Below, piece after piece: positions 16 to 12,139 of a stretch of DNA of 38,086 bases. The translations under genes and the position numbers were made by a program. A model generated the notes under the pieces. That model saw only the letters and a program-made list of their open reading frames with translations. It was not told the DNA's origin and searched no databases. The DNA comes from an uncultured Fidelibacterota bacterium (GTDB lineage: Bacteria > Fidelibacterota > Marinisomatia > Marinisomatales > UBA1611), in assembly GCA_902562835.1 (NCBI GenBank), contig CACEUX010000016.1:1-38086 (forward strand), read 5' to 3'. Position 1 is the first letter of the stretch; each line of letters starts with the position of its first letter.

Positions 16-1029
16 TTAAAATTTCAGTCCAATGGCTAGCTGGTTTGTATAATTCAGAATATCATAGTCAACGAATGCATAATCAATGGTCAATGCCCAT
101 TTACCCAAGCGAACATTCGCCCCCGCACCTAGACTTAAACCTGCAGTATCATGATTAAGGTGTGTCCCCGCTCTTAAGAAAGCAAGATTTTGCCAACCAT
201 ATTCCAGCCCCATACTTCCATAGACAACATAATCGCTGGGTTTGATACCATCTACGCTAACGATCAAGCTATGCTTATCATTCTTTAAAAATGGACTCTC
301 AGGACCCATTACCTTATTCTCTATGCCTAGCCTGAATGTAAGTGGTAAGGGAAACTTATCTGTGATCCTCTGCAAACTACCATCTACATCAATGGTATCT
401 GCAACCTGTACACTCAGATCCTCACCTGTATATTGTACTTCAGGACCAAAATTAGTAATACTCATACCCAGGACCGTATTATAAATACCCGTCTGAAAAT
501 TAGAACCAATATCATAAGAGATCGTCTGCATTTGGGTCTCAGCTATCTTATCGCTGATATAGTTGAGTGATCCCCCTACTTTTAAACGATCCGTAAGATT
601 GCGAGCAAAGGTCGCCCTTGCAGATAGCGATAAAACCTTAAAATCCTCACCAGTTCCATCTGGGAATAATTCTGTTGTTACCTCCATAGGACCGCTATCA
701 AGATAAAATAAATGAAGGCCTGCAAAATTAGATGGGCCCATTCGTGTACCATAGGTTAGAACACCATGTGTGATACCTGCTAGGTAACTAACTTGAGAAA
801 AATATGCCTCACTTTTCTCAATATAACCAATACTCGCAGGGTTATAGGGTATACCTGAGACGCCACGACCTGATGCAACAAAAGAACCACCCATGCCAAT
901 CGCTCGAGCGGAAGTCTCTAACTTTAAAAAACCACCGGCTGCTGTAGCCACTTTAGTGACCACATCAGGGATATCACGGTATTGACCTAATAGCAAAACA
1001 GGAAAAAGAAGTATCAGTATTCTCTTCAT
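16..1029 (-). CDS. PorV/PorQ-like outer-membrane barrel, copy 1
   Basis: A 337-residue protein with a short signal peptide (about residues 1-15), then the ARAIGMGGSF and NPASIGY motifs near residues 42-68 that mark PorV/PorQ (OMPP1/FadL-like) barrels. The rest alternates like beta-strands and ends in an aromatic residue (GLKF), as barrels do. In Bacteroidetes, PorV is the outer-membrane shuttle of type IX secretion; assigning that role here is inference. It is the last gene of the operon inside the window. Its ATG overlaps the TGA of secreted protein A (ATGA), so the two are probably translationally coupled. The protein is identical to the copy at 4541-5554. The stop here is TAA rather than TGA, just at the edge of the identical DNA. 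Confident on family, moderate on a secretion role. Confidence 0.8.
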   Translation of the reverse strand: MKRILILLFPVLLLGQYRDIPDVVTKVATAAGGFLKLETSARAIGMGGSFVASGRGVSGIPYNPASIGYIEKSEAYFSQVSYLAGITHGVLTYGTRMGPSNFAGLHLFYLDSGPMEVTTELFPDGTGEDFKVLSLSARATFARNLTDRLKVGGSLNYISDKIAETQMQTISYDIGSNFQTGIYNTVLGMSITNFGPEVQYTGEDLSVQVADTIDVDGSLQRITDKFPLPLTFRLGIENKVMGPESPFLKNDKHSLIVSVDGIKPSDYVVYGSMGLEYGWQNLAFLRAGTHLNHDTAGLSLGAGANVRLGKWALTIDYAFVDYDILNYTNQLAIGLKF

Positions 1030-1053
1030 CGTATCACCGCAAATTTGCCAATA
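18..1053. repeat. 1036-bp direct repeat, copy 1
   Basis: This matches 4543-5578 at a constant offset of 4525. It spans the whole PorV-like gene plus the last eight codons of the gene before it (encoding IGKFAVIR). The match ends inside the PorV stop codon on one side (TAA here, TGA in copy 2) and at base 1053 on the other (next base t here, a in copy 2). No difference was seen by eye. Confidence 0.9.
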
Positions 1054-4000
1054 TGGTACTGGGTCTTTTTAGTAAGTCTTTTATTATCGTATTTGCTGTT
1101 TGAATAATAATCATTTTCTAAACTGCCTTGAATATCACCTTCATCATCATATGTATCAATACAATATTCTTTTTCTTCTGGGAACTCGATCACATATAAA
1201 TATAGCCCTGGTGCTATCTCAGGACCATCCTGGTTTCTACCGGTTCTTAAGTTCCACCAGGCATTACCATCGAATTGTTCCTGATGTTCAAAGGAGGTCA
1301 CGTGTTCACCTGAAATGGTATATATTGATATGAGACATTCTTTTGGCAAATGAGTAAATCGAATCCTACGCTGGTTTGGGGTCTCATTAAATCTTGAGCT
1401 AGCTTTGTATGGATTAGGAACAACCTTAATAGAATCGAGGCATAGAGTATCGGGTATGCCAACCTCTTCACCCAATTTAGACATATCTGAGAACCAATTA
1501 TCACCATCAACAAATAATTTATGTGGTTTGACCAAGAGTTGCTCACCGCCTTTCCAGGGATAAGCTGGCCTCCAAGGATTGTTTCTTGATCCATCGTCAT
1601 CTTGATCTGAAAAAACAGACTGAGGTTTAGTACCAGGATCTGTTGGAACTTTAGCATGCCATAAGGTTCCTTGGTAGAAAACAGTATCCCCCTGATTGTA
1701 ACCTTTAACATCATCATAGGCCTTCCTATTTTTCTCACTATTTGGAATAGGAAGAAATAGGTCCATATTATAATTATATGCCTCTACCCATGCACCAGCA
1801 ATTCTGAGCGAATCTTTGATCATGAAAATATCTTCGCCAGGCGTCCATACATAGTCTGCGGCTCCATTACCATAATCGATTGGAGACGCATCTTCAGACC
1901 CATAGTCATTACATAGAAGGCCAACTTGTTTACCAGTATAGACATTGGTTATCTTAAATGGGAAATACATTTTGCCTGGGCCGGAGGTATTAGTGATAGA
2001 TATTGCCGTACCACTATCTGGCTCAGAAAAGAATTCTAGCTTATAGTCGAAATTCAATCTTCTAAGGTAACTGGTTACATTTGTATAGGATAGAGATGGT
2101 AAAACTGAGAAATACAGATTATAAACCTTAGCACTGTCCATAGCAACACTATCCGGACTTGACCATGACCATAATAATGTATCAATGGCTACAGGAGGAA
2201 CTGCAGATACATCCAGAGGAATTTTATTTTTGATCTTAAAGCGAATACCTTTGAACTGATCACTCCATCTACCCACAGAGGTTATAATATCATAATTTGG
2301 TACAACGTATGACCCATTTTCATAAATTGTACCTGGTAGACCAGAGATCGAATCCTTTTCAAAAAAGTTTAGATTTTCCTCATAATATGTTACAGTAGAA
2401 GTAGGGAGACCTGAGCTATCTTGAACAACATATCCAAACACACGCGGATCTTCACAAGCCATGCCATCTACTGCAGAACTACTCTGGTCTGCTTCTATTT
2501 CATATTTAATTTTATCTTGAACAATTTTTGTTCTATCAACAATAAAGTAGTCTCTGTCTCCTGTGCCTACATTAAAAATATCTGAAGTAAATAGAGCTTC
2601 AATATCACTGGCGTCCGGGAAAGAGATATCCAGTGCTGTATAGCCTGGAACAACTGTGATAAAATTATGATCACCTGAATCACCTCTTGCTGATTCTAGA
2701 AAAGGATAACCTCTTAACGGGTTCGCATCTTTTCTGATCCAATTACCAGCTTCATCGTAAAAGTCTACTGAGTCAGGGCCATAAAATTCACCAGGATTAG
2801 TAACAGGCCAGATAGTATCAGCGTTGAAGATACCTGATGAGTCGGTCTCTGTGAGAGATAGTTGAAACCTAGGTAAACCCATATCATAAGCTGTTACACT
2901 GTAGGTATACTCCACTCCGTCGATCACATTTGAATCAACATATGAATACTCTAATCCAGTATTACTTCCAAGAGTGAATCGAGGCAGGTATGGATCTAAA
3001 CCAGCAATTGATGTTTGCCGAGTTTCTTCTGATTCACATTCACCATTATGGTCATAGATGCAATGAAAAAAGTCTTCTTCATAATCGAAGTCAAATTGCG
3101 CGTAAGGAATCCAGCCAACAAATTCACCATTAAAATCATATAGTTTATCATTGTCGCCTCCCCAGGTTATCCCACCATCAATTGAACGATATAGCTTATA
3201 CCCTTCAAAATCTGAGTAACCCGTTAAAGAATCATATGAGGCCTCTGATGACGCATCCCAAGATACAAGCACCTGACCATGACTTGCAACTGCATAAACT
3301 GCTGGACTTACAGGTGCAGAAAAATCACTAAAAATAACCTCAACAGTATCATAACTGATGGCATTCTCACTATCCATTACCTTTAGACTATACATGTAAT
3401 TAGAATAGCGACTGATCGGGTCTAGATCTGATACTGAAATAGTAGGGTCTGATACGATCGATCCGCTTGGGGTGGTCCATTCATAACTAACAGACTCTCC
3501 ATCTGGGTCAAATGAGCTCCCTGCGTCAAGAGTAATCGTCGATGATTCAAATTTAGCCACTCTTCTTGTCTCACCAGCATCTGCAACAGGACACAAGTTA
3601 GCCTGTATCGTGATATTAACAGTATCATGATCTGAGCAATAGCCATCATTCACCTCTAGTGCCACCCTGTAAGACGTGGCCTCACTTAAATCTAATGGAC
3701 TTATAACCATTGGTTTATTAGTATTTGCATCATTTATAGTCAGTCCATCCAAAGAGGTCCAATTATAAGTTAGTTCATTCCAGTTCACATCATAAGATTG
3801 TGAGGCAGTGAGTGAGAATTGGTATTCACAGGTATTAATATCACTACCCGCATTGGATATAGGGGCATCATTATCTAGGTAGAAAACCTTAACGGTATCA
3901 GAGACACTTTGCACCGCATCAGACACCGTGAGTTTAAATGAAAAAATTTGATCTTGATCGGTCGTAGGAAAGTTGAAAACCGCTACAACTGAATCCGAAA

Positions 4001-4544
4001 CACTGAAATTACTATCAAACCCATCTAGAGATGTCCATTGATAAGTGATCGATTCATCTTGAGGGTCTTCTGAATCAGATCCATCAAATTGCGCTGTGAA
4101 AACACAACCGTTACTGAGCGTTTGGTCATCACCCGCAACTGCTCTTGGACACATATTGGATTGAATAAATACAATTACAGTATCTAAATCTTCACAAGAC
4201 CCAGATTCATCATATATCCTAAGCTGGACATAAAATTCTGTATCTTCAGCCAATTCATCTGGATATTTGAAACGAGGATCGGCTTCATCGGACTGACTAT
4301 TAGTGATGACAAGAGATTCCTCATCGCTACCATCACCAACTACTGTGAGAACGGTCCATTCATAATTGACGTCGCCTTCTTCTACTGAAGAACCAGTACC
4401 ATCAAGATGAGTATAATTAGATGATGATCCATCTCCATCACAGATGGAAATGTCATTACCAGCATTAGCACTACATTGGGCGTAGAGATAGCCTTGACCA
4501 ACAAACAGAATGATTGCCGAAAAAGTTAGAATTCGTTTTATCAA
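1026..4544 (-). CDS. Secreted multidomain protein A: PKD repeats, FN3-like domain, sorting tail
   Basis: A 1172-residue secreted protein. After a signal peptide (cleavage near YAQC, residue 23) come four PKD-like domains, about residues 24-130, 132-222, 227-315 and 318-405, each with an AGDD/AGSD-type start and a Y-x-W-T core. An FN3-like domain follows from about 410 (SWDASSEA...GYKLYRS). The last about 105 residues hold the VVPNPYK and IAPGLYLYVI motifs of a type IX-style sorting domain, ending GKFAVIR. It is paralogous to protein B in the FN3 and tail regions. The start is TTG at 4544, overlapping the TGA of the PorV copy upstream (TTGA); no ATG lies near the signal peptide. PKD and FN3 domains suggest adhesion or glycan or protein binding at the surface. 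No catalytic motif was recognised. Confidence 0.72.
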   Translation of the reverse strand: MIKRILTFSAIILFVGQGYLYAQCSANAGNDISICDGDGSSSNYTHLDGTGSSVEEGDVNYEWTVLTVVGDGSDEESLVITNSQSDEADPRFKYPDELAEDTEFYVQLRIYDESGSCEDLDTVIVFIQSNMCPRAVAGDDQTLSNGCVFTAQFDGSDSEDPQDESITYQWTSLDGFDSNFSVSDSVVAVFNFPTTDQDQIFSFKLTVSDAVQSVSDTVKVFYLDNDAPISNAGSDINTCEYQFSLTASQSYDVNWNELTYNWTSLDGLTINDANTNKPMVISPLDLSEATSYRVALEVNDGYCSDHDTVNITIQANLCPVADAGETRRVAKFESSTITLDAGSSFDPDGESVSYEWTTPSGSIVSDPTISVSDLDPISRYSNYMYSLKVMDSENAISYDTVEVIFSDFSAPVSPAVYAVASHGQVLVSWDASSEASYDSLTGYSDFEGYKLYRSIDGGITWGGDNDKLYDFNGEFVGWIPYAQFDFDYEEDFFHCIYDHNGECESEETRQTSIAGLDPYLPRFTLGSNTGLEYSYVDSNVIDGVEYTYSVTAYDMGLPRFQLSLTETDSSGIFNADTIWPVTNPGEFYGPDSVDFYDEAGNWIRKDANPLRGYPFLESARGDSGDHNFITVVPGYTALDISFPDASDIEALFTSDIFNVGTGDRDYFIVDRTKIVQDKIKYEIEADQSSSAVDGMACEDPRVFGYVVQDSSGLPTSTVTYYEENLNFFEKDSISGLPGTIYENGSYVVPNYDIITSVGRWSDQFKGIRFKIKNKIPLDVSAVPPVAIDTLLWSWSSPDSVAMDSAKVYNLYFSVLPSLSYTNVTSYLRRLNFDYKLEFFSEPDSGTAISITNTSGPGKMYFPFKITNVYTGKQVGLLCNDYGSEDASPIDYGNGAADYVWTPGEDIFMIKDSLRIAGAWVEAYNYNMDLFLPIPNSEKNRKAYDDVKGYNQGDTVFYQGTLWHAKVPTDPGTKPQSVFSDQDDDGSRNNPWRPAYPWKGGEQLLVKPHKLFVDGDNWFSDMSKLGEEVGIPDTLCLDSIKVVPNPYKASSRFNETPNQRRIRFTHLPKECLISIYTISGEHVTSFEHQEQFDGNAWWNLRTGRNQDGPEIAPGLYLYVIEFPEEKEYCIDTYDDEGDIQGSLENDYYSNSKYDNKRLTKKTQYHIGKFAVIR

Positions 4545-5554
4545 AATTTCAGTCCAATGGCTAGCTGGTTTGTATAATTCAGAATATCATAGTCAACGAA
4601 TGCATAATCAATGGTCAATGCCCATTTACCCAAGCGAACATTCGCCCCCGCACCTAGACTTAAACCTGCAGTATCATGATTAAGGTGTGTCCCCGCTCTT
4701 AAGAAAGCAAGATTTTGCCAACCATATTCCAGCCCCATACTTCCATAGACAACATAATCGCTGGGTTTGATACCATCTACGCTAACGATCAAGCTATGCT
4801 TATCATTCTTTAAAAATGGACTCTCAGGACCCATTACCTTATTCTCTATGCCTAGCCTGAATGTAAGTGGTAAGGGAAACTTATCTGTGATCCTCTGCAA
4901 ACTACCATCTACATCAATGGTATCTGCAACCTGTACACTCAGATCCTCACCTGTATATTGTACTTCAGGACCAAAATTAGTAATACTCATACCCAGGACC
5001 GTATTATAAATACCCGTCTGAAAATTAGAACCAATATCATAAGAGATCGTCTGCATTTGGGTCTCAGCTATCTTATCGCTGATATAGTTGAGTGATCCCC
5101 CTACTTTTAAACGATCCGTAAGATTGCGAGCAAAGGTCGCCCTTGCAGATAGCGATAAAACCTTAAAATCCTCACCAGTTCCATCTGGGAATAATTCTGT
5201 TGTTACCTCCATAGGACCGCTATCAAGATAAAATAAATGAAGGCCTGCAAAATTAGATGGGCCCATTCGTGTACCATAGGTTAGAACACCATGTGTGATA
5301 CCTGCTAGGTAACTAACTTGAGAAAAATATGCCTCACTTTTCTCAATATAACCAATACTCGCAGGGTTATAGGGTATACCTGAGACGCCACGACCTGATG
5401 CAACAAAAGAACCACCCATGCCAATCGCTCGAGCGGAAGTCTCTAACTTTAAAAAACCACCGGCTGCTGTAGCCACTTTAGTGACCACATCAGGGATATC
5501 ACGGTATTGACCTAATAGCAAAACAGGAAAAAGAAGTATCAGTATTCTCTTCAT
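4541..5554 (-). CDS. PorV/PorQ-like outer-membrane barrel, copy 2
   Basis: This encodes the same 337 residues as the gene at 16-1029, with matching DNA throughout as far as I can compare by eye. It sits between secreted proteins B and A. Its ATG overlaps the TGA of B (ATGA) and its own TGA overlaps the TTG of A (TTGA), so B, PorV and A are probably co-translated. Each large cargo-like protein is thus followed directly by a PorV-like barrel. One reading is that each barrel serves the cargo before it. Another is that the second copy exists for dosage. The identity of the copies argues against divergent cargo specificity. Confidence 0.8.
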   Translation of the reverse strand: MKRILILLFPVLLLGQYRDIPDVVTKVATAAGGFLKLETSARAIGMGGSFVASGRGVSGIPYNPASIGYIEKSEAYFSQVSYLAGITHGVLTYGTRMGPSNFAGLHLFYLDSGPMEVTTELFPDGTGEDFKVLSLSARATFARNLTDRLKVGGSLNYISDKIAETQMQTISYDIGSNFQTGIYNTVLGMSITNFGPEVQYTGEDLSVQVADTIDVDGSLQRITDKFPLPLTFRLGIENKVMGPESPFLKNDKHSLIVSVDGIKPSDYVVYGSMGLEYGWQNLAFLRAGTHLNHDTAGLSLGAGANVRLGKWALTIDYAFVDYDILNYTNQLAIGLKF

Positions 5555-5578
5555 CGTATCACCGCAAATTTGCCAATA
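4543..5578. repeat. 1036-bp direct repeat, copy 2
   Basis: Second copy of the repeat at 18-1053, in the same orientation, with protein A's unique sequence between them. The left edge falls at the first base of the PorV stop codon and the right edge within the C-terminal codons of protein B. No transposase, terminal inverted repeat or target duplication is visible at either edge. Confidence 0.9.
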
Positions 5579-8500
5579 AATGGGTCGCTTGATTGCCCAA
5601 CTTGTTCAACATGAAAAATATAAAGTCCTGGCGCGATCTCTTGGTTATTGATACTTCTCATATCCCACCATGCATTACCTGACTCAGTGTCATCATGTTC
5701 AATAGTACCTACAGCTTCTCCAGTCAATGTAAATATTCGAATGGTGCACTGAGCTGGCAGGTTTGTGAACCTGATCTGCCGCAAGTGCTCTCCCTCCTTA
5801 AAGCCCGAGTTTACTCTGTATGGGTTTGGTACAACGCCCACATCCCCTAAAGAGGCGACAGGCATTACTCCAGGGTAGACCTGTACAAAGTTTCGGTCTA
5901 AGACAGTGGTCCCTTTAGAGTTTTCAATGGATGCATAACCATCAGGGCTTGCCCATTGGTCAGGATTGGAATAATTTGTGTCGACCTGAACTACATATTG
6001 GCCATCGCCAACATCATTATAGATTTCTTCAAAAGGTGGCTCAACACCCATATCGTAGGCAACCACTGAGTAAGTATATTCCAAGCCGTCCACAACATTT
6101 TGATCTTTAAACATATAGTGCATTGTATCCCCGTTAACAACCACCGGTTCATCTAGTCTTATACTCTCAAAGCCTGTGTCATTACCAAGGCTGAACCAAG
6201 GGAAATAAGGATCCTGACCATTGATTGCATGCCCTCGTGACAATTCTTCAGGACAATCAAAACTTCTTTCGTAGACACAATGGAGAGAGTCTTCTTGCGC
6301 AGAGAGGTCATATTGCTGGTAGGGTCTCCAACCTGCAAAAATACCATCTGTATCATAGATCATGTCTTCTGCATTACCCCATGTATTGCCAGCATCTCCG
6401 CTCTTATATATTTTATAGCCCTCAAAATCTGCGTAACCAGTAACTACATCTCTGGACTCTTCAGCAGCGTCATCCCAGAAAATATTTACTTCACCCTGCC
6501 CAGTGACTGCATGCACAGTTGGCCTAGAGGGAGGTGTAAACCCTTGGTAACGTGAGTTATACATGACCTGTGCAAACCTTGCATTATTTATCAAATCTGT
6601 TTCAGTTTGTCCGAAAATAATACAGAATGAAAATGGAACCTCCCTACCTACAGGGAGATCAAAAGGTCCACAGCTCATTATTAGCACACAATCCAAACCT
6701 TCAGGGTCTCTTTCATAAACTGACTCTAATTTTAATCCCTCAACAGAATCGAAATGAGGATTTAATTCGTCGCCACTATCTGTTCCAGGATTTGGAGTAT
6801 GAAAATGCCAAGCTTTTTCACCTTCGCTTAGATTTGAGGTGTCCCCAACCATCAATTTGTATAGTATCTCTTCTTTATTTCTTGCAACTGGACAGCCTTC
6901 ATAGCCAGCATAACAACTACTTGAATTGGATTCAGGAGACACAACTCCAGGACGCTGGTACCAGTCTACCCAGTGCCAATCAGTCATTTTTAATGGCTCT
7001 CCTGGGAAAATATCGATTGTACCATCTAGGTCAAGGTCAACAGGATCTGTTGCTCTTGGCGAATCAAGTAACTGAGTAGCTACCACACCAAATTCATTTC
7101 CTGGATGAGATGTAACAGATGGTTCATCAAGTGTATATCCGGCGACTCCTGAAAGTCCATCGTGGTCGCCGATCATAGCCATACTAATCAACATACGATC
7201 ATTGTTCACTTCAAAGATCTCCCAATAGTACTTCATAAAATCATCGTCATTTGTATGTAAACCACCATTGTAGCCAGCCCAATCACCCATTAGGACATCA
7301 GCATCCATATAAAAACCCAGAGACATTCCGCTATAGTCAAATCCCTTGCCTCGATTGAGCTTTGTCCCATCCGGCATGATCATCGCCTCACCACATTCCT
7401 GATTGCCGTCTTTATCTAAAATTGGATTACCTTCCTCATCCTCTGCACACCAGTCGCCACTCTCATTACGCACTTTAACAGTAACGAACATAATATCTTC
7501 AGCATATGAGACACCGTAAGAATGAGCAGTCGCTTTGACACGGAGACCCATTGGATAACCTGTCTGCTCGTATTTATCATTGGTGTTGACATTGTTTGCT
7601 CTATGGGACCATCGATCATCAAACTCCATATAGACATCCATATCAGAAACAAATCTGCCAGGTACTTCTTCCCAGCAATTGGGATCTTTTCTTGAATAGG
7701 AGCAACCGGGAAGATTAACATTATAATCCTGTGACCACCATCCGGGCCAATATGATTCCATTAGACCAGTCGTCATATTCATGCTTGTAGGCCATGTATT
7801 GGAATACGCTGAATGAGCTAATACAGGGTAGGTATCATCACCAGAGACCCAAGGCGTATCCCCAAAAATATCACTTGCGTTGTATTCAGTCTGATGCGAA
7901 TTAGTTCTGGCCATTGTAGAAGCGTGCCAATCTGTTTTGTATTCTGTGCTGATAAAATGAGATTCAGCAGCATTTGCACCATAGTATACGTAATCATCAT
8001 CGTCTGTCCACTCTTCAAGATCTTCACCATAGTCATAAAAGTCGAATTGAGATTCTCTACTAATTAATGCAGGTCTAAGAGCCCAAGGATAAATAAAGCC
8101 AACTCTCGCAGTTGTTTTATTTGGGTCAGAATCCCCAAAAGTACTAAGCACGATCTTTCTATCCTCGTCATTAAAGTAATACTGGTTATTAGTATTGATA
8201 GCATCTACTGAGGAAACTTCATTATTCGGATTAAAAGACCCATCATCATTACCTAGGTCAAATAATATGCCTTTATAACTAGTGTCACCCGAAACTGGAT
8301 ACCAATCATCATATGCGCTTGAGGACTCCCATATGCTGTAAAGAGGAAACCCTTCTTCGTCAACCACTGTCTCTACATTTTCCCATAAAAAATGAGCAGT
8401 ATTCTTGTGCCCAGGTACAGCACCTATAAATGAAACGGCAGGTAAATATGAATAATCGCCCCAAATACCAGATGGGTGGACATCCCAATTGATAACACTA

Positions 8501-8721
8501 CCATAATTAGTTATGGCGCTTTTTACACGACCCTGGTCAATAAAGCCTTTTGCTCTGTCACTCATTGGATTAGTAGGAAATGGATTATCGCCAATTTTAG
8601 CTGTCGTAGTCCTTCTGAAGGGATCTGGCTGACTCGGCGCATCTTTAAGGCTACCATCTTTTGCCAAAATAATGGAAACCAGTATAAAGGTAATGGGTAT
8701 ATGTTTGAAAGTATTAGTCAA
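5551..8721 (-). CDS. Secreted protein B with FN3-like domain and sorting tail
   Basis: About 1056 residues. A signal peptide (hydrophobic ITFILVSIILA) leads into a large unrecognised N-terminal region of about 700 residues, rich in Trp, Tyr, Asp and Gly. An FN3-like segment follows near residues 730-830 (VNIFWDDAAEES...GYKIYKS). The last about 85 residues carry VVPNPYR and IAPGLYIFHV, ending GKFAVIR, as in protein A. The start is non-ATG: a TTG at 8721 has AAGGA six bases upstream (plus-strand 8728-8732), whereas a TTG at 8727 abuts that site, so 8721 is preferred. The start lies inside the end of the receptor gene. This is a probable cargo of the same export route as protein A. Its function is unknown. 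Confidence 0.7.
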   Translation of the reverse strand: MTNTFKHIPITFILVSIILAKDGSLKDAPSQPDPFRRTTTAKIGDNPFPTNPMSDRAKGFIDQGRVKSAITNYGSVINWDVHPSGIWGDYSYLPAVSFIGAVPGHKNTAHFLWENVETVVDEEGFPLYSIWESSSAYDDWYPVSGDTSYKGILFDLGNDDGSFNPNNEVSSVDAINTNNQYYFNDEDRKIVLSTFGDSDPNKTTARVGFIYPWALRPALISRESQFDFYDYGEDLEEWTDDDDYVYYGANAAESHFISTEYKTDWHASTMARTNSHQTEYNASDIFGDTPWVSGDDTYPVLAHSAYSNTWPTSMNMTTGLMESYWPGWWSQDYNVNLPGCSYSRKDPNCWEEVPGRFVSDMDVYMEFDDRWSHRANNVNTNDKYEQTGYPMGLRVKATAHSYGVSYAEDIMFVTVKVRNESGDWCAEDEEGNPILDKDGNQECGEAMIMPDGTKLNRGKGFDYSGMSLGFYMDADVLMGDWAGYNGGLHTNDDDFMKYYWEIFEVNNDRMLISMAMIGDHDGLSGVAGYTLDEPSVTSHPGNEFGVVATQLLDSPRATDPVDLDLDGTIDIFPGEPLKMTDWHWVDWYQRPGVVSPESNSSSCYAGYEGCPVARNKEEILYKLMVGDTSNLSEGEKAWHFHTPNPGTDSGDELNPHFDSVEGLKLESVYERDPEGLDCVLIMSCGPFDLPVGREVPFSFCIIFGQTETDLINNARFAQVMYNSRYQGFTPPSRPTVHAVTGQGEVNIFWDDAAEESRDVVTGYADFEGYKIYKSGDAGNTWGNAEDMIYDTDGIFAGWRPYQQYDLSAQEDSLHCVYERSFDCPEELSRGHAINGQDPYFPWFSLGNDTGFESIRLDEPVVVNGDTMHYMFKDQNVVDGLEYTYSVVAYDMGVEPPFEEIYNDVGDGQYVVQVDTNYSNPDQWASPDGYASIENSKGTTVLDRNFVQVYPGVMPVASLGDVGVVPNPYRVNSGFKEGEHLRQIRFTNLPAQCTIRIFTLTGEAVGTIEHDDTESGNAWWDMRSINNQEIAPGLYIFHVEQVGQSSDPFIGKFAVIR

Positions 8722-11700
8722 AATCAATCCTTATAAAAAAGTTTATCTCTCTTGGCGTGGAAAGGCGCCATGGTCTATCATAGTAGGCACTGGATTTATC
8801 TGCATAAACACCGGCCCCATTAGGGTCCGTGCCAGGCAATCCTACATAGTTTGTATAATAGGTTCCTGGATCATCTGGCTTACCTGTTAATGCATAAATA
8901 TCCCACGCGTTACGAATGTCCAGAATGTTGAAAATATTCAAGCCGATAGCGAATTTATGCTTAAATGCTTCAAGGTATTTTGAGAACGAAAGATTGACAT
9001 TTCGATAGGCCGGACCTCTCTTTGAATTTGGATGCCTAAGATCTTCTGCTGGGTCTTTTCCCTTAAAAATGATAGGAGTATAAGGGTATCCGCTCTGATA
9101 AAAGGCAGTTAGGCCAGCCTGAACGCCAAACGGCAAAAATGTATAAAGATAAAAAGTCAGGTCATGAGGACGGTCATAATAAGCAAGGTTTTCTTGACTA
9201 GGAGCATCAACATATTGCCCACTTATACTTGCCCATGCATACTCACTATTTGTTTTTGCAATGGAATAAGTATACTGAAGCATGGAGCCTAAAAATGCCC
9301 ATCGCCATTCTAATGTGAGGTCAAGACCTTTGGCAGAGCCATAATCGCCGTTTGTAGCGACTTGATAAGAGTATACACCTGACCTTTCATTATTATAGCG
9401 TGTCAATTGATCCATATCTCTTACCCAAGCTCCAAAGGAATATGCCCAATTCTCTCCAACCTGGACATTAAAACTTGCTCCATACTGCTGGGTCCTTTGA
9501 GCATTCATAGTAGCATTACCTACTGCGCCCTCTCCTTCTTCAAAAAGTTCTTCAGGGTCTTCCAAACTATTTGTATTCAGATAAACATTCTGATAAACAG
9601 GGTTTTGGAAATAAAGACCGTAATTGAAGGTAAAAGTTGATTTGTCTGTAATAACGTGGCTAAAACCGATACGGGGACTGATCTTGTAAGACCAGTTTGA
9701 ATTTTTCAGCATAATCTTTTGCCTTGCTAAACCGGCAATATCTGATGCTTCTTCTACTCCTTTATCCCATATATCATTATCATTGAGATCAGAATAAAAC
9801 CAGGGTCTACCTGGACTGAATTTACCTAGGGTATCGGACCAGACCTGGGAATTGTAATCAACCATATCAATCCTAACACCGTAGTTAATTACCATCCATG
9901 GCACTTCAAAAGTATTTTGAATGTATGCTGAAAATTCTTCAGGCTCGCGAAAATCGTCCCACTTACCATTATCATTCGCATCAGTATATTTTTCACCTTC
10001 ATCCCATCTACCATTATTTTCACCAGCATCGGCCTCTTCGTATCCTTCATCACCCAGCAGCAATCCATCCGGTCCGGTATCTTGCCAATACTCAGCGAAG
10101 GTCTGAATCTTAGCGCCAGCACCTAACCATGGATATTTTACCTCATAAAAATTAAGCTTATGGGACTTGTAGTCTGCACCTACTCTGACCTTCCACTTAT
10201 TAGTCAGCTGACTAGTAATGTCAAAACGAACTTCATCGGTAATCGAAGTAGAACTCGCATAAAAAGTATCATGGCCTCCGAATGTCCTGCCTTCATCCCA
10301 AGCTACACCAGTTACATCAGGCATGTAATAGTAAGGGTTGGCTAATCCTGGAATAAAGCTAAAGTTATTTGGCGTACCGTAATATCCAGGAACATTCTGC
10401 CAAAGAAGATCTATACTTTCATAATCGTAAAATGGTTCAAAATCTTCATACATTTCTGGCTCCAGCCAGTAATCTCCATCCTTATTGATCAATTCTTTAA
10501 TTAATTCTGGACCATCCCAGACTCCATCGCCATCAACATCGGTGTATTGCTCTCCAAAATCCCAGACTCCATTACCGTTTTGGTCATCAAAATCCTCTGC
10601 AAGCTCCCAATTCCAAAGTCCGGGCTTTGCGCCATGGTACCAGCCACTTCTCTCATCTACATTGGTATATCGAATTGTATCGCCGTCTTCTCCTATGGAA
10701 TAAGGCACTACGTATTTATTCTCAGGATCTGAAATTTGCTTATACCCGGCAGGATGCCTCCATTCAAACCAGTTAGGATAACCATCTTTATCATTATCTC
10801 TCCATCTCACACCCTGAAACTGGTCCTGAGTAAATCTCGACCACCTTAATGTGTAGAATGTGCTTTGGGTAACAGAGTGGTTCATCTCAAAATTATATCT
10901 GTATGTGTCGCGAAAAAGTTCATTTCTTCCTTCATCCCAATATAAATACCGTGGATTAAAGGCCTGTCTATGATTTGCGACTTGCCAATACGATCCATGG
11001 AATCGAAGCTTATTTGTAAACTTATAACTCAGTTTTGCAAACACATCCCAGGTATCATCGAACCCAAAACCTCTAAACCCAGCTACATCATCCCAGGGAT
11101 AAACAAGATCTTTTTTGTTCTGCTGCAGCTCATCAAGGTCGAGATCAGATTCATTAAGAAAATATTTTGATCCTCTATATATTTTATCATCAAATTCATA
11201 GACACTATACTTGTCCTCAATAGTATATTGACCTGAGACCCAGAAAGTAAGCTTTGGTATTCCAATAATTGGCCCACCTAATCCAAAATTAAAATCAGTA
11301 TAGCCACGATTCAGGTCATAATTATTTGTTTCAAGGTCGTTACCCAATGCTGAGTTTATAGCAGCACCAACTTGGCTTGTTTCATATTTAAAATGATACT
11401 CTATTTCTTTGCCACCCGCAGCTGTATGCCAATTAGAGACCGCTGATTGAGCGTCTCCATACTCTGCATTAAAACCCCCAGGCTGCCAGTCAAATTGCCT
11501 AACCGCAAATAAATTAAGCCTTGTGCCTGAACCTATCGATCCAAAAATAGGATTTCGTAGGTACATACCATCCATCATGTACGCGATCTCACCAGACCTG
11601 CCTCCCTTAACATGTATCTCTTCAATACCACGTTCTTCATGGTCTGGAACTGATTTCGTTCTACTTTCAACTTTAACAACGCCTGACTGGAGTGTATACA

Positions 11701-12139
11701 GTTCAGTCAGGTCACGTATTGGCAGAGACTGAATAGCTTCCTTATCAACGGTTACCTTTTTTGAAGTGGTGCCCTTTTCTACAAGAGGACGTGTACCAAG
11801 GACAACGACCTCATCACCTTCAACATTTTCAGGTCGGATTTTAAAATTAAGCCAAACCGTTTGGTCCATTACAACATTGACATTAGTAGTAGTTGTTTTT
11901 GCATAACCCATCATTTGACAGACCACATCATATTGCCCAACAGGGATATTCAATATAATGTAGTTTCCGTCAAAATCTGCTGCTGCACCTGTACCTATTT
12001 CTGGAACATATATGTTTGCCCCAGGAAGAGGTGCCCCTTCATCATCTGTGACCTTCCCACGAATTGTACCATCAGTTCCTGCATTTAAAAATGTTATGAG
12101 AAATACTAATAAAAATAGAGTATTGAAGGGCTTTCTCAT
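8714..12139 (-). CDS. TonB-dependent outer-membrane receptor
   Basis: A 1141-residue receptor. A signal peptide is followed by a carboxypeptidase-regulatory-like domain (about 23-105; GKVTDDEGAPLPGANIYV), a TonB-box-like DEVVVLGTRP stretch (about 108-118), a plug domain (about 125-235, with MMDGMYLRNP) and a beta-barrel to the C-terminus (ends in IRIDFD). This layout is that of SusC-type receptors, which import large substrates using TonB energy. Long loops carry calcium-loop-like inserts near residues 512-545, 690-735 and 780-792, e.g. NGNGVWDFGE and DGDGVWDG. The same kind of motif is repeated in the lipoprotein encoded just upstream. The ATG overlaps the lipoprotein TGA (ATGA). The substrate cannot be told from sequence. 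Confidence 0.92.
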   Translation of the reverse strand: MRKPFNTLFLLVFLITFLNAGTDGTIRGKVTDDEGAPLPGANIYVPEIGTGAAADFDGNYIILNIPVGQYDVVCQMMGYAKTTTTNVNVVMDQTVWLNFKIRPENVEGDEVVVLGTRPLVEKGTTSKKVTVDKEAIQSLPIRDLTELYTLQSGVVKVESRTKSVPDHEERGIEEIHVKGGRSGEIAYMMDGMYLRNPIFGSIGSGTRLNLFAVRQFDWQPGGFNAEYGDAQSAVSNWHTAAGGKEIEYHFKYETSQVGAAINSALGNDLETNNYDLNRGYTDFNFGLGGPIIGIPKLTFWVSGQYTIEDKYSVYEFDDKIYRGSKYFLNESDLDLDELQQNKKDLVYPWDDVAGFRGFGFDDTWDVFAKLSYKFTNKLRFHGSYWQVANHRQAFNPRYLYWDEGRNELFRDTYRYNFEMNHSVTQSTFYTLRWSRFTQDQFQGVRWRDNDKDGYPNWFEWRHPAGYKQISDPENKYVVPYSIGEDGDTIRYTNVDERSGWYHGAKPGLWNWELAEDFDDQNGNGVWDFGEQYTDVDGDGVWDGPELIKELINKDGDYWLEPEMYEDFEPFYDYESIDLLWQNVPGYYGTPNNFSFIPGLANPYYYMPDVTGVAWDEGRTFGGHDTFYASSTSITDEVRFDITSQLTNKWKVRVGADYKSHKLNFYEVKYPWLGAGAKIQTFAEYWQDTGPDGLLLGDEGYEEADAGENNGRWDEGEKYTDANDNGKWDDFREPEEFSAYIQNTFEVPWMVINYGVRIDMVDYNSQVWSDTLGKFSPGRPWFYSDLNDNDIWDKGVEEASDIAGLARQKIMLKNSNWSYKISPRIGFSHVITDKSTFTFNYGLYFQNPVYQNVYLNTNSLEDPEELFEEGEGAVGNATMNAQRTQQYGASFNVQVGENWAYSFGAWVRDMDQLTRYNNERSGVYSYQVATNGDYGSAKGLDLTLEWRWAFLGSMLQYTYSIAKTNSEYAWASISGQYVDAPSQENLAYYDRPHDLTFYLYTFLPFGVQAGLTAFYQSGYPYTPIIFKGKDPAEDLRHPNSKRGPAYRNVNLSFSKYLEAFKHKFAIGLNIFNILDIRNAWDIYALTGKPDDPGTYYTNYVGLPGTDPNGAGVYADKSSAYYDRPWRLSTPREINFFIRIDFD

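Follow-up and report, generated by a model that had tools for sequence, protein, structure and literature searches.

The window analysed here (the whole stretch of 38,086 bp) carries two identical genes for a PorV/PorQ-family protein in one operon, and these are very probably an old paralogue pair that recurrent gene conversion has kept identical. The window makes up all of contig C16 in a draft Neomarinimicrobiota genome (G000; 1.83 Mb, 97 contigs, 78% complete), the named relatives of which are Candidatus Neomarinimicrobiota / Marinimicrobia (SAR406). Self-comparison aligns positions 18–1053 with 4543–5578 in direct orientation at 1036 of 1036 bases; the match is maximal, with 0 bases of further identity at either side, and is the sole repeat found within the window by self-BLAST (E ≤ 1e-5). 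A perfect match of this length cannot be due to chance, and the tract is indeed present twice without difference, as the first-pass annotation had reported.

The operon and the edges of the identical tract

Along its direction of transcription, the operon comprises a lipoprotein, a TonB receptor, cargo B, a PorV-like gene (the upstream copy), cargo A and a second PorV-like gene (the downstream copy), after which the contig ends. Each gene overlaps its neighbours by a few bases, and because the window spans all of contig C16, copy 1 of the tract lies only 17 bases from the contig end.

12136–14349, minus strand: predicted lipoprotein, 737 aa; first operon gene, conserved by synteny, with a lipobox-like N-terminus by inspection
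8714–12139, minus strand: TonB-dependent outer-membrane receptor, 1141 aa (PF13715, PF00593); upstream operon member, conserved by synteny
5551–8727, minus strand: cargo B, secreted, 1058 aa
5558–5565, minus strand: GCGGTGAT, probable Shine-Dalgarno of the upstream PorV-like gene within the last codons of cargo B, from the wobble-base pattern
4541–5554, minus strand: upstream PorV/PorQ-family gene, 337 aa, after cargo B; stop TGA, overlapping the start of A
4543–5578: identical tract, copy 2, 1036 bp
1026–4544, minus strand: cargo A, secreted, 1172 aa; PKD domains (PF22352/PF18911) and a divergent T9SS-like C-terminal domain (CTD) ending IGKFAVIR
1033–1040, minus strand: GCGGTGAT, probable Shine-Dalgarno of the downstream PorV-like gene within the last codons of cargo A, from the wobble-base pattern
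16–1029, minus strand: downstream PorV/PorQ-family gene, 337 aa, after cargo A; stop TAA; NF033709, PDB and fold matches
18–1053: identical tract, copy 1, 1036 bp
1–17: contig end past copy 1, the same as the PorV-to-D junction of a genome of the same genus (G001) save one T

The two PorV-like genes agree at all codons ahead of the stop, and the right edge of the tract is the stop codon itself. The first-pass annotation had the tract ending at that codon; the stop is reached, but by one base only, and the two stops differ. Such a difference between copies is common, since one of the two stops overlaps the start of A. At the left edge, the tract was said to begin inside the IGKFAVIR codons of each cargo gene, and it covers exactly the 24 bases 5′ of the PorV ATG that encode I-G-K-F-A-V-I-R, with no need for a special recombination signal there. 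Among the genomes of the window's family (f1), identity on this side extends 20–35 bases ahead of the PorV ATG, over the codons for the conserved cargo GKFAVIR.

The IGKFAVIR codons are conserved in nearly all of these cargos. The wobble bases are for the most part fixed if PorV starts no more than 5 nt from the cargo stop, with GCGGTG at 27 of 35 such PorV copies; if PorV is spaced or absent, GCGGTG is present in 0 of 7 (the upstream copies of G035 and G125, G027, cargo A of G028 and G040, and two B paralogues of the window's own genome); both counts were made by eye on related genomes and are therefore non-independent. As GGTGAT fits a Shine-Dalgarno and the wobble bases are mostly fixed when PorV adjoins and free otherwise, we read the conserved DNA as a putative PorV ribosome-binding site inside the cargo gene. 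The left tract edge is thus probably explained in large part by the overlap of the conserved cargo C-terminus with the likely Shine-Dalgarno of PorV. A role of the IGKFAVIR DNA as a recombination hotspot is needless, given that wobble fixation tracks the proximity of the PorV start and that GGTGAT fits a Shine-Dalgarno. Conversion tracts ending at the ends of homology are known from tuf (PMC5485169).

Age of the arrangement and likeness of the copies within genomes

Further genera of f1 share this gene order (G004, G012, G016, G023, G007 and G047, and G008 as far as its contig end), as do additional families of the order (G031, G122, G034, G035 and G125; f8, f11, f12 and similar labels denote other families) and a second order of the class (G182 and G163), and orthologues of cargo A occupy the same place in relatives. 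Recurrence of this order across genera, families and orders indicates that neither cargo gene A nor the second PorV is a recent addition. The first-pass suggestion of a very recent insertion of a PorV copy beside a new cargo is therefore not upheld, since A and the downstream PorV hold this position across many genera and in further families. The sequence past copy 1 also tells against a new insertion, since it fits the PorV-to-D junction of two relatives, one of which has the gene at 90% protein identity; this downstream junction to gene D is conserved in G000, G001 and G010, with a related sequence in G010. Departures from the order include family f5 (G028 and G040), which has B-PorV-A with the second PorV absent. 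Two observations count against the conversion reading, namely an A-less form, B-PorV-D, in two genomes (G001 and G005) and the absence of the locus from some genera of good completeness.

In G024, which is assigned to f1, a divergent PorV (L045) comes after a larger B (1280 aa) and ahead of an A-like protein of 2593 aa. Because this PorV groups with f16 sequences, transfer or misbinning is possible. A contig labelled Lentimicrobiaceae (L068, PANC01000008.1) begins inside the same PorV gene and continues with genes of the sizes seen past the operon, and is apparently a misbinned Marinimicrobia contig.

Within genomes the PorV copies are homogeneous. The f1 comparison comprises all seven genomes with both copies on one contig, and the copies show 0 differences in the window, G004, G023, G007 and G047. 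Those of G012 are alike apart from N's and one called difference, and those of G016 are alike except for the last 10 bases, a mosaic that places the tract end inside the gene. Between the same genomes the synonymous sites of PorV are saturated (pS 0.66–0.85), with pN of 0.11–0.24. Even the nearest genome, G001 of the same genus, differs from the window gene by 51 synonymous changes (pS 0.218), set against no difference between the window copies. As metagenome assemblies make up nearly all of this set, the assembler could have flattened a few differences that exact identity would then conceal.

Near-identical pairs occur in 10 genomes, seven of f1, two of f8 and one of f19. In genus g18 of f8, the copies of G122 have one difference and those of G031 have 28, whereas pS between the two genomes is 0.70, which places conversion later than their split. 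The copies of G182 (f19, another order) are again identical, with a left identity that reaches 237 bases; this longer tract (L105, 8006–9265 and 12337–13596) takes in 150 bp of intergenic DNA and the end of the cargo gene. The f11 pair (G034) are sisters yet have 248 differences, as if conversion had ended long ago, and the copies of G163 (f16) are strongly diverged, with 47% and 37% identity to the window protein.

Phylogenetic trees agree with these comparisons. In f1 (7 of 7), f8 and f11 the PorV copies of a genome group together, and AU tests reject the f1 upstream copies as one clade (p 8e-57) and likewise the f1 downstream copies (p 6e-6); the cargo CTDs of the same genomes group by position, A versus B, with support of 94/92. 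In f12 the upstream and downstream copies form two separate clades by position. Because the f12 copies are diverged and sorted by position, the two-copy state must be ancient and homogenisation recurrent. Independently diverged copies at both sites, a pattern that the first-pass annotation had set against exchange between them, occur in the distant f12 and are not seen in close relatives.

We infer recombination as the mechanism. Homologous recombination between the two direct-repeat genes, which lie ~3.5 kb apart, would copy one over the other, the identical copies giving no direction. The conversion tract would usually reach the ends of the shared sequence, bounded by the cargo IGKFAVIR codons and, at the opposite end, by the PorV stop codon. 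Having no long DNA identity in common, cargo genes A and B diverge. Recombination or gene conversion between cargo-PorV cassettes had been among the first-pass suggestions, and it agrees with a conserved arrangement in which the copies are identical or nearly so within f1 genomes and saturated at synonymous sites between them.

Alternative explanations and draft assemblies

Independent recent duplication, by which a single PorV would have been freshly copied to the position after A in each lineage, is improbable. It would likewise yield identical copies within genomes, and the B-PorV-A order without a second PorV in f5 speaks for it. It requires, however, that an insertion occurred independently some 10 times at one position, in most cases with the same start, overlapping or abutting, and it does not sit well with a downstream flank that is conserved between genomes differing in PorV, with the mosaic 3′ end in G016, or with the old, separate upstream and downstream clades of f12.

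We regard it as highly improbable that the pattern is an assembly artefact in which a single PorV, or a pair of different ones, was entered twice. In favour of it are the draft state of the genome, the 17 bp between copy 1 and a contig end, and contig G001:C17 (TMED46), which has B-PorV-D only. Against this, the B-PorV-A-PorV order is repeated across independent projects and assemblers, including AM-382-M06 (G004), which is not labelled a metagenome assembly and which the plate-and-well style of its name and the absent 'MAG' tag suggest to be a single-cell genome. The sequence past each copy also tells against an artefact, the D-side junction of G001 being matched past copy 1 and the coding start of A standing past copy 2. 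The assembly join raised in the first-pass annotation is accordingly an unlikely source of the pattern, the arrangement recurring in many independent assemblies.

The A-less form is a likelier artefact than the two-copy form. In G001 (TMED46; L027, 11359–14597) B contains 59 ambiguous bases and the opening 72 nt of PorV another 3, against 0 in the 942 nt that follow. The TMED pipeline joined contigs that overlapped by 100 bp or more at 95% identity, and its binning was restricted to contigs no shorter than 7.5 kb (PMC5507172). Given this abrupt stop of ambiguous bases within PorV and these merging rules, a misjoin inside the repeat that dropped A is likely in G001. The same A-less form is present in G005 (MED586), and a true deletion by recombination between the repeats is possible for the two genomes.

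Contigs end in, or no more than 150 bp from, a PorV copy in 10 of 16 f1 genomes (P 0.013 against a rough chance estimate). This is the pattern expected of a real repeat, but as the estimate is rough and the excess modest we treat it as supporting evidence only. Contigs C195 and C120 of G010 overlap at the left edge of the repeat. Because the repeat breaks or misjoins drafts at the operon, metagenome bins may often lack cargo A and one PorV for technical reasons.

Protein-level purifying selection without DNA exchange can be dismissed: the protein is conserved (pN 0.11–0.36 between genomes), but the synonymous sites are identical within genomes (dS = 0) and saturated between them.

Predicted function and relation to known systems

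The first-pass annotation named both genes PorV, of which the family assignment holds and the specific one does not. The protein scores above the NCBIfam cut-off for the PorV/PorQ family (NF033709; 153 versus 90 bits) and below that of the PorV equivalog (NF033710; 55.9 versus 250 bits). A profile built from 25 relatives has a single PDB match, the PorV of the type IX translocon (6h3i_F, E 3.8e-14), and an AlphaFold2 model (pLDDT 80) has the PorV chains 8gl6_F and 6h3i_F as its closest PDB chains (query-normalised TM 0.65–0.68), with FadL-type barrels next. Other PorV-family genes are present in the same genome, the most PorV-like, on G000:C10, scoring 126.7 bits and also falling below the equivalog cut-off. 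The missed cut-off and these additional genes together suggest that the window pair are accessory PorV-family proteins, each beside a cargo gene. We predict that this outer-membrane PorV-like protein probably helps to export surface proteins and, from family membership and fold, that the two copies act as type IX secretion shuttles for A and B, each translated beside its own cargo. On the same grounds, one shuttle sequence common to both cargos would appear to be tolerated or favoured.

Cargos A and B have in common ~210 aa and the CTD (43–48% identity). Their CTDs are T9SS-like, with the pattern VVPNPY...GLY...IGKFAVIR; their likeness to TIGR04183 and CHU_C is weak and below the cut-off, and they do not classify as type A CTDs (TIGR04183). 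In the relative G004 (L030), two genes downstream of the second PorV pass the TIGR04183 cut-off. A search of 13 genomes found SprA_N in 11, among them two from the window's genus; it was not found in the window's own 78%-complete genome.

The closest solved sequence and fold, the T9SS PorV of 6h3i and 8gl6 (chain F), is a FadL-type beta-barrel. The window genes differ from it in missing the equivalog cut-off, in having a better PorV-like match elsewhere in the genome, at G000:C10, and in standing directly after cargo genes. In Flavobacterium, type B cargos have cognate PorP/SprF shuttles, the shuttle gene lying directly downstream of the cargo gene (PMC12618676). The window operon has the same cargo-shuttle adjacency, but its shuttles belong to the PorV/PorQ family and not to PorP/SprF, and the same shuttle sequence follows two different cargos.

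Prokaryotic protein genes rarely undergo recurrent concerted evolution: a survey found it in 26 genes, tuf (EF-Tu) pairs among them, using as criteria synteny, synonymous identity and occurrence in at least five species; outer-membrane genes were there associated with short-term cases (PMC6053082). PorV is not among the 26 genes. The PorV pair has paralogues closer to each other than to orthologues, at synonymous sites too, in old syntenic positions and in at least five species (10 genomes), and it is thus a well-supported new example of a known process. It has in common with the tuf pairs a within-genome likeness above that of orthologues, synonymous sites included, conserved synteny and long recurrence. 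Unlike tuf, the PorV copies are ~3.5 kb apart in one operon with a cargo gene between them, and their product is an accessory secretion or outer-membrane protein. Within the searchable papers, we found no earlier report of recurrent concerted evolution for a type IX secretion shuttle or in Marinimicrobia, none of one PorV-type shuttle repeated after two cargos and kept identical, and nothing relevant on Marinimicrobia together with type IX secretion, PorV or gene conversion.

It is conceivable, though we think it doubtful, that selection favours homogenisation. Cargos A and B would then carry a signal class of the Neomarinimicrobiota (VVPNPY...IGKFAVIR) served by a dedicated PorV-type shuttle, and identical copies would hold one specificity while keeping dosage coupled to cargo. 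If this is true, lineages with diverged shuttles, such as f12, would have split specificities. The existence of lineages with one shared shuttle sequence and of others with two diverged ones makes this question of shuttle-cargo specificity testable.

The window's own genome has at least two more B paralogues (G000:C13:6349 and G000:C15:1356; L101 and L102), which end in GKFAVIR or GKFAVVR and have no PorV directly 3′. These may depend on the shuttles of the operon, like the orphan type B substrates of Flavobacterium.
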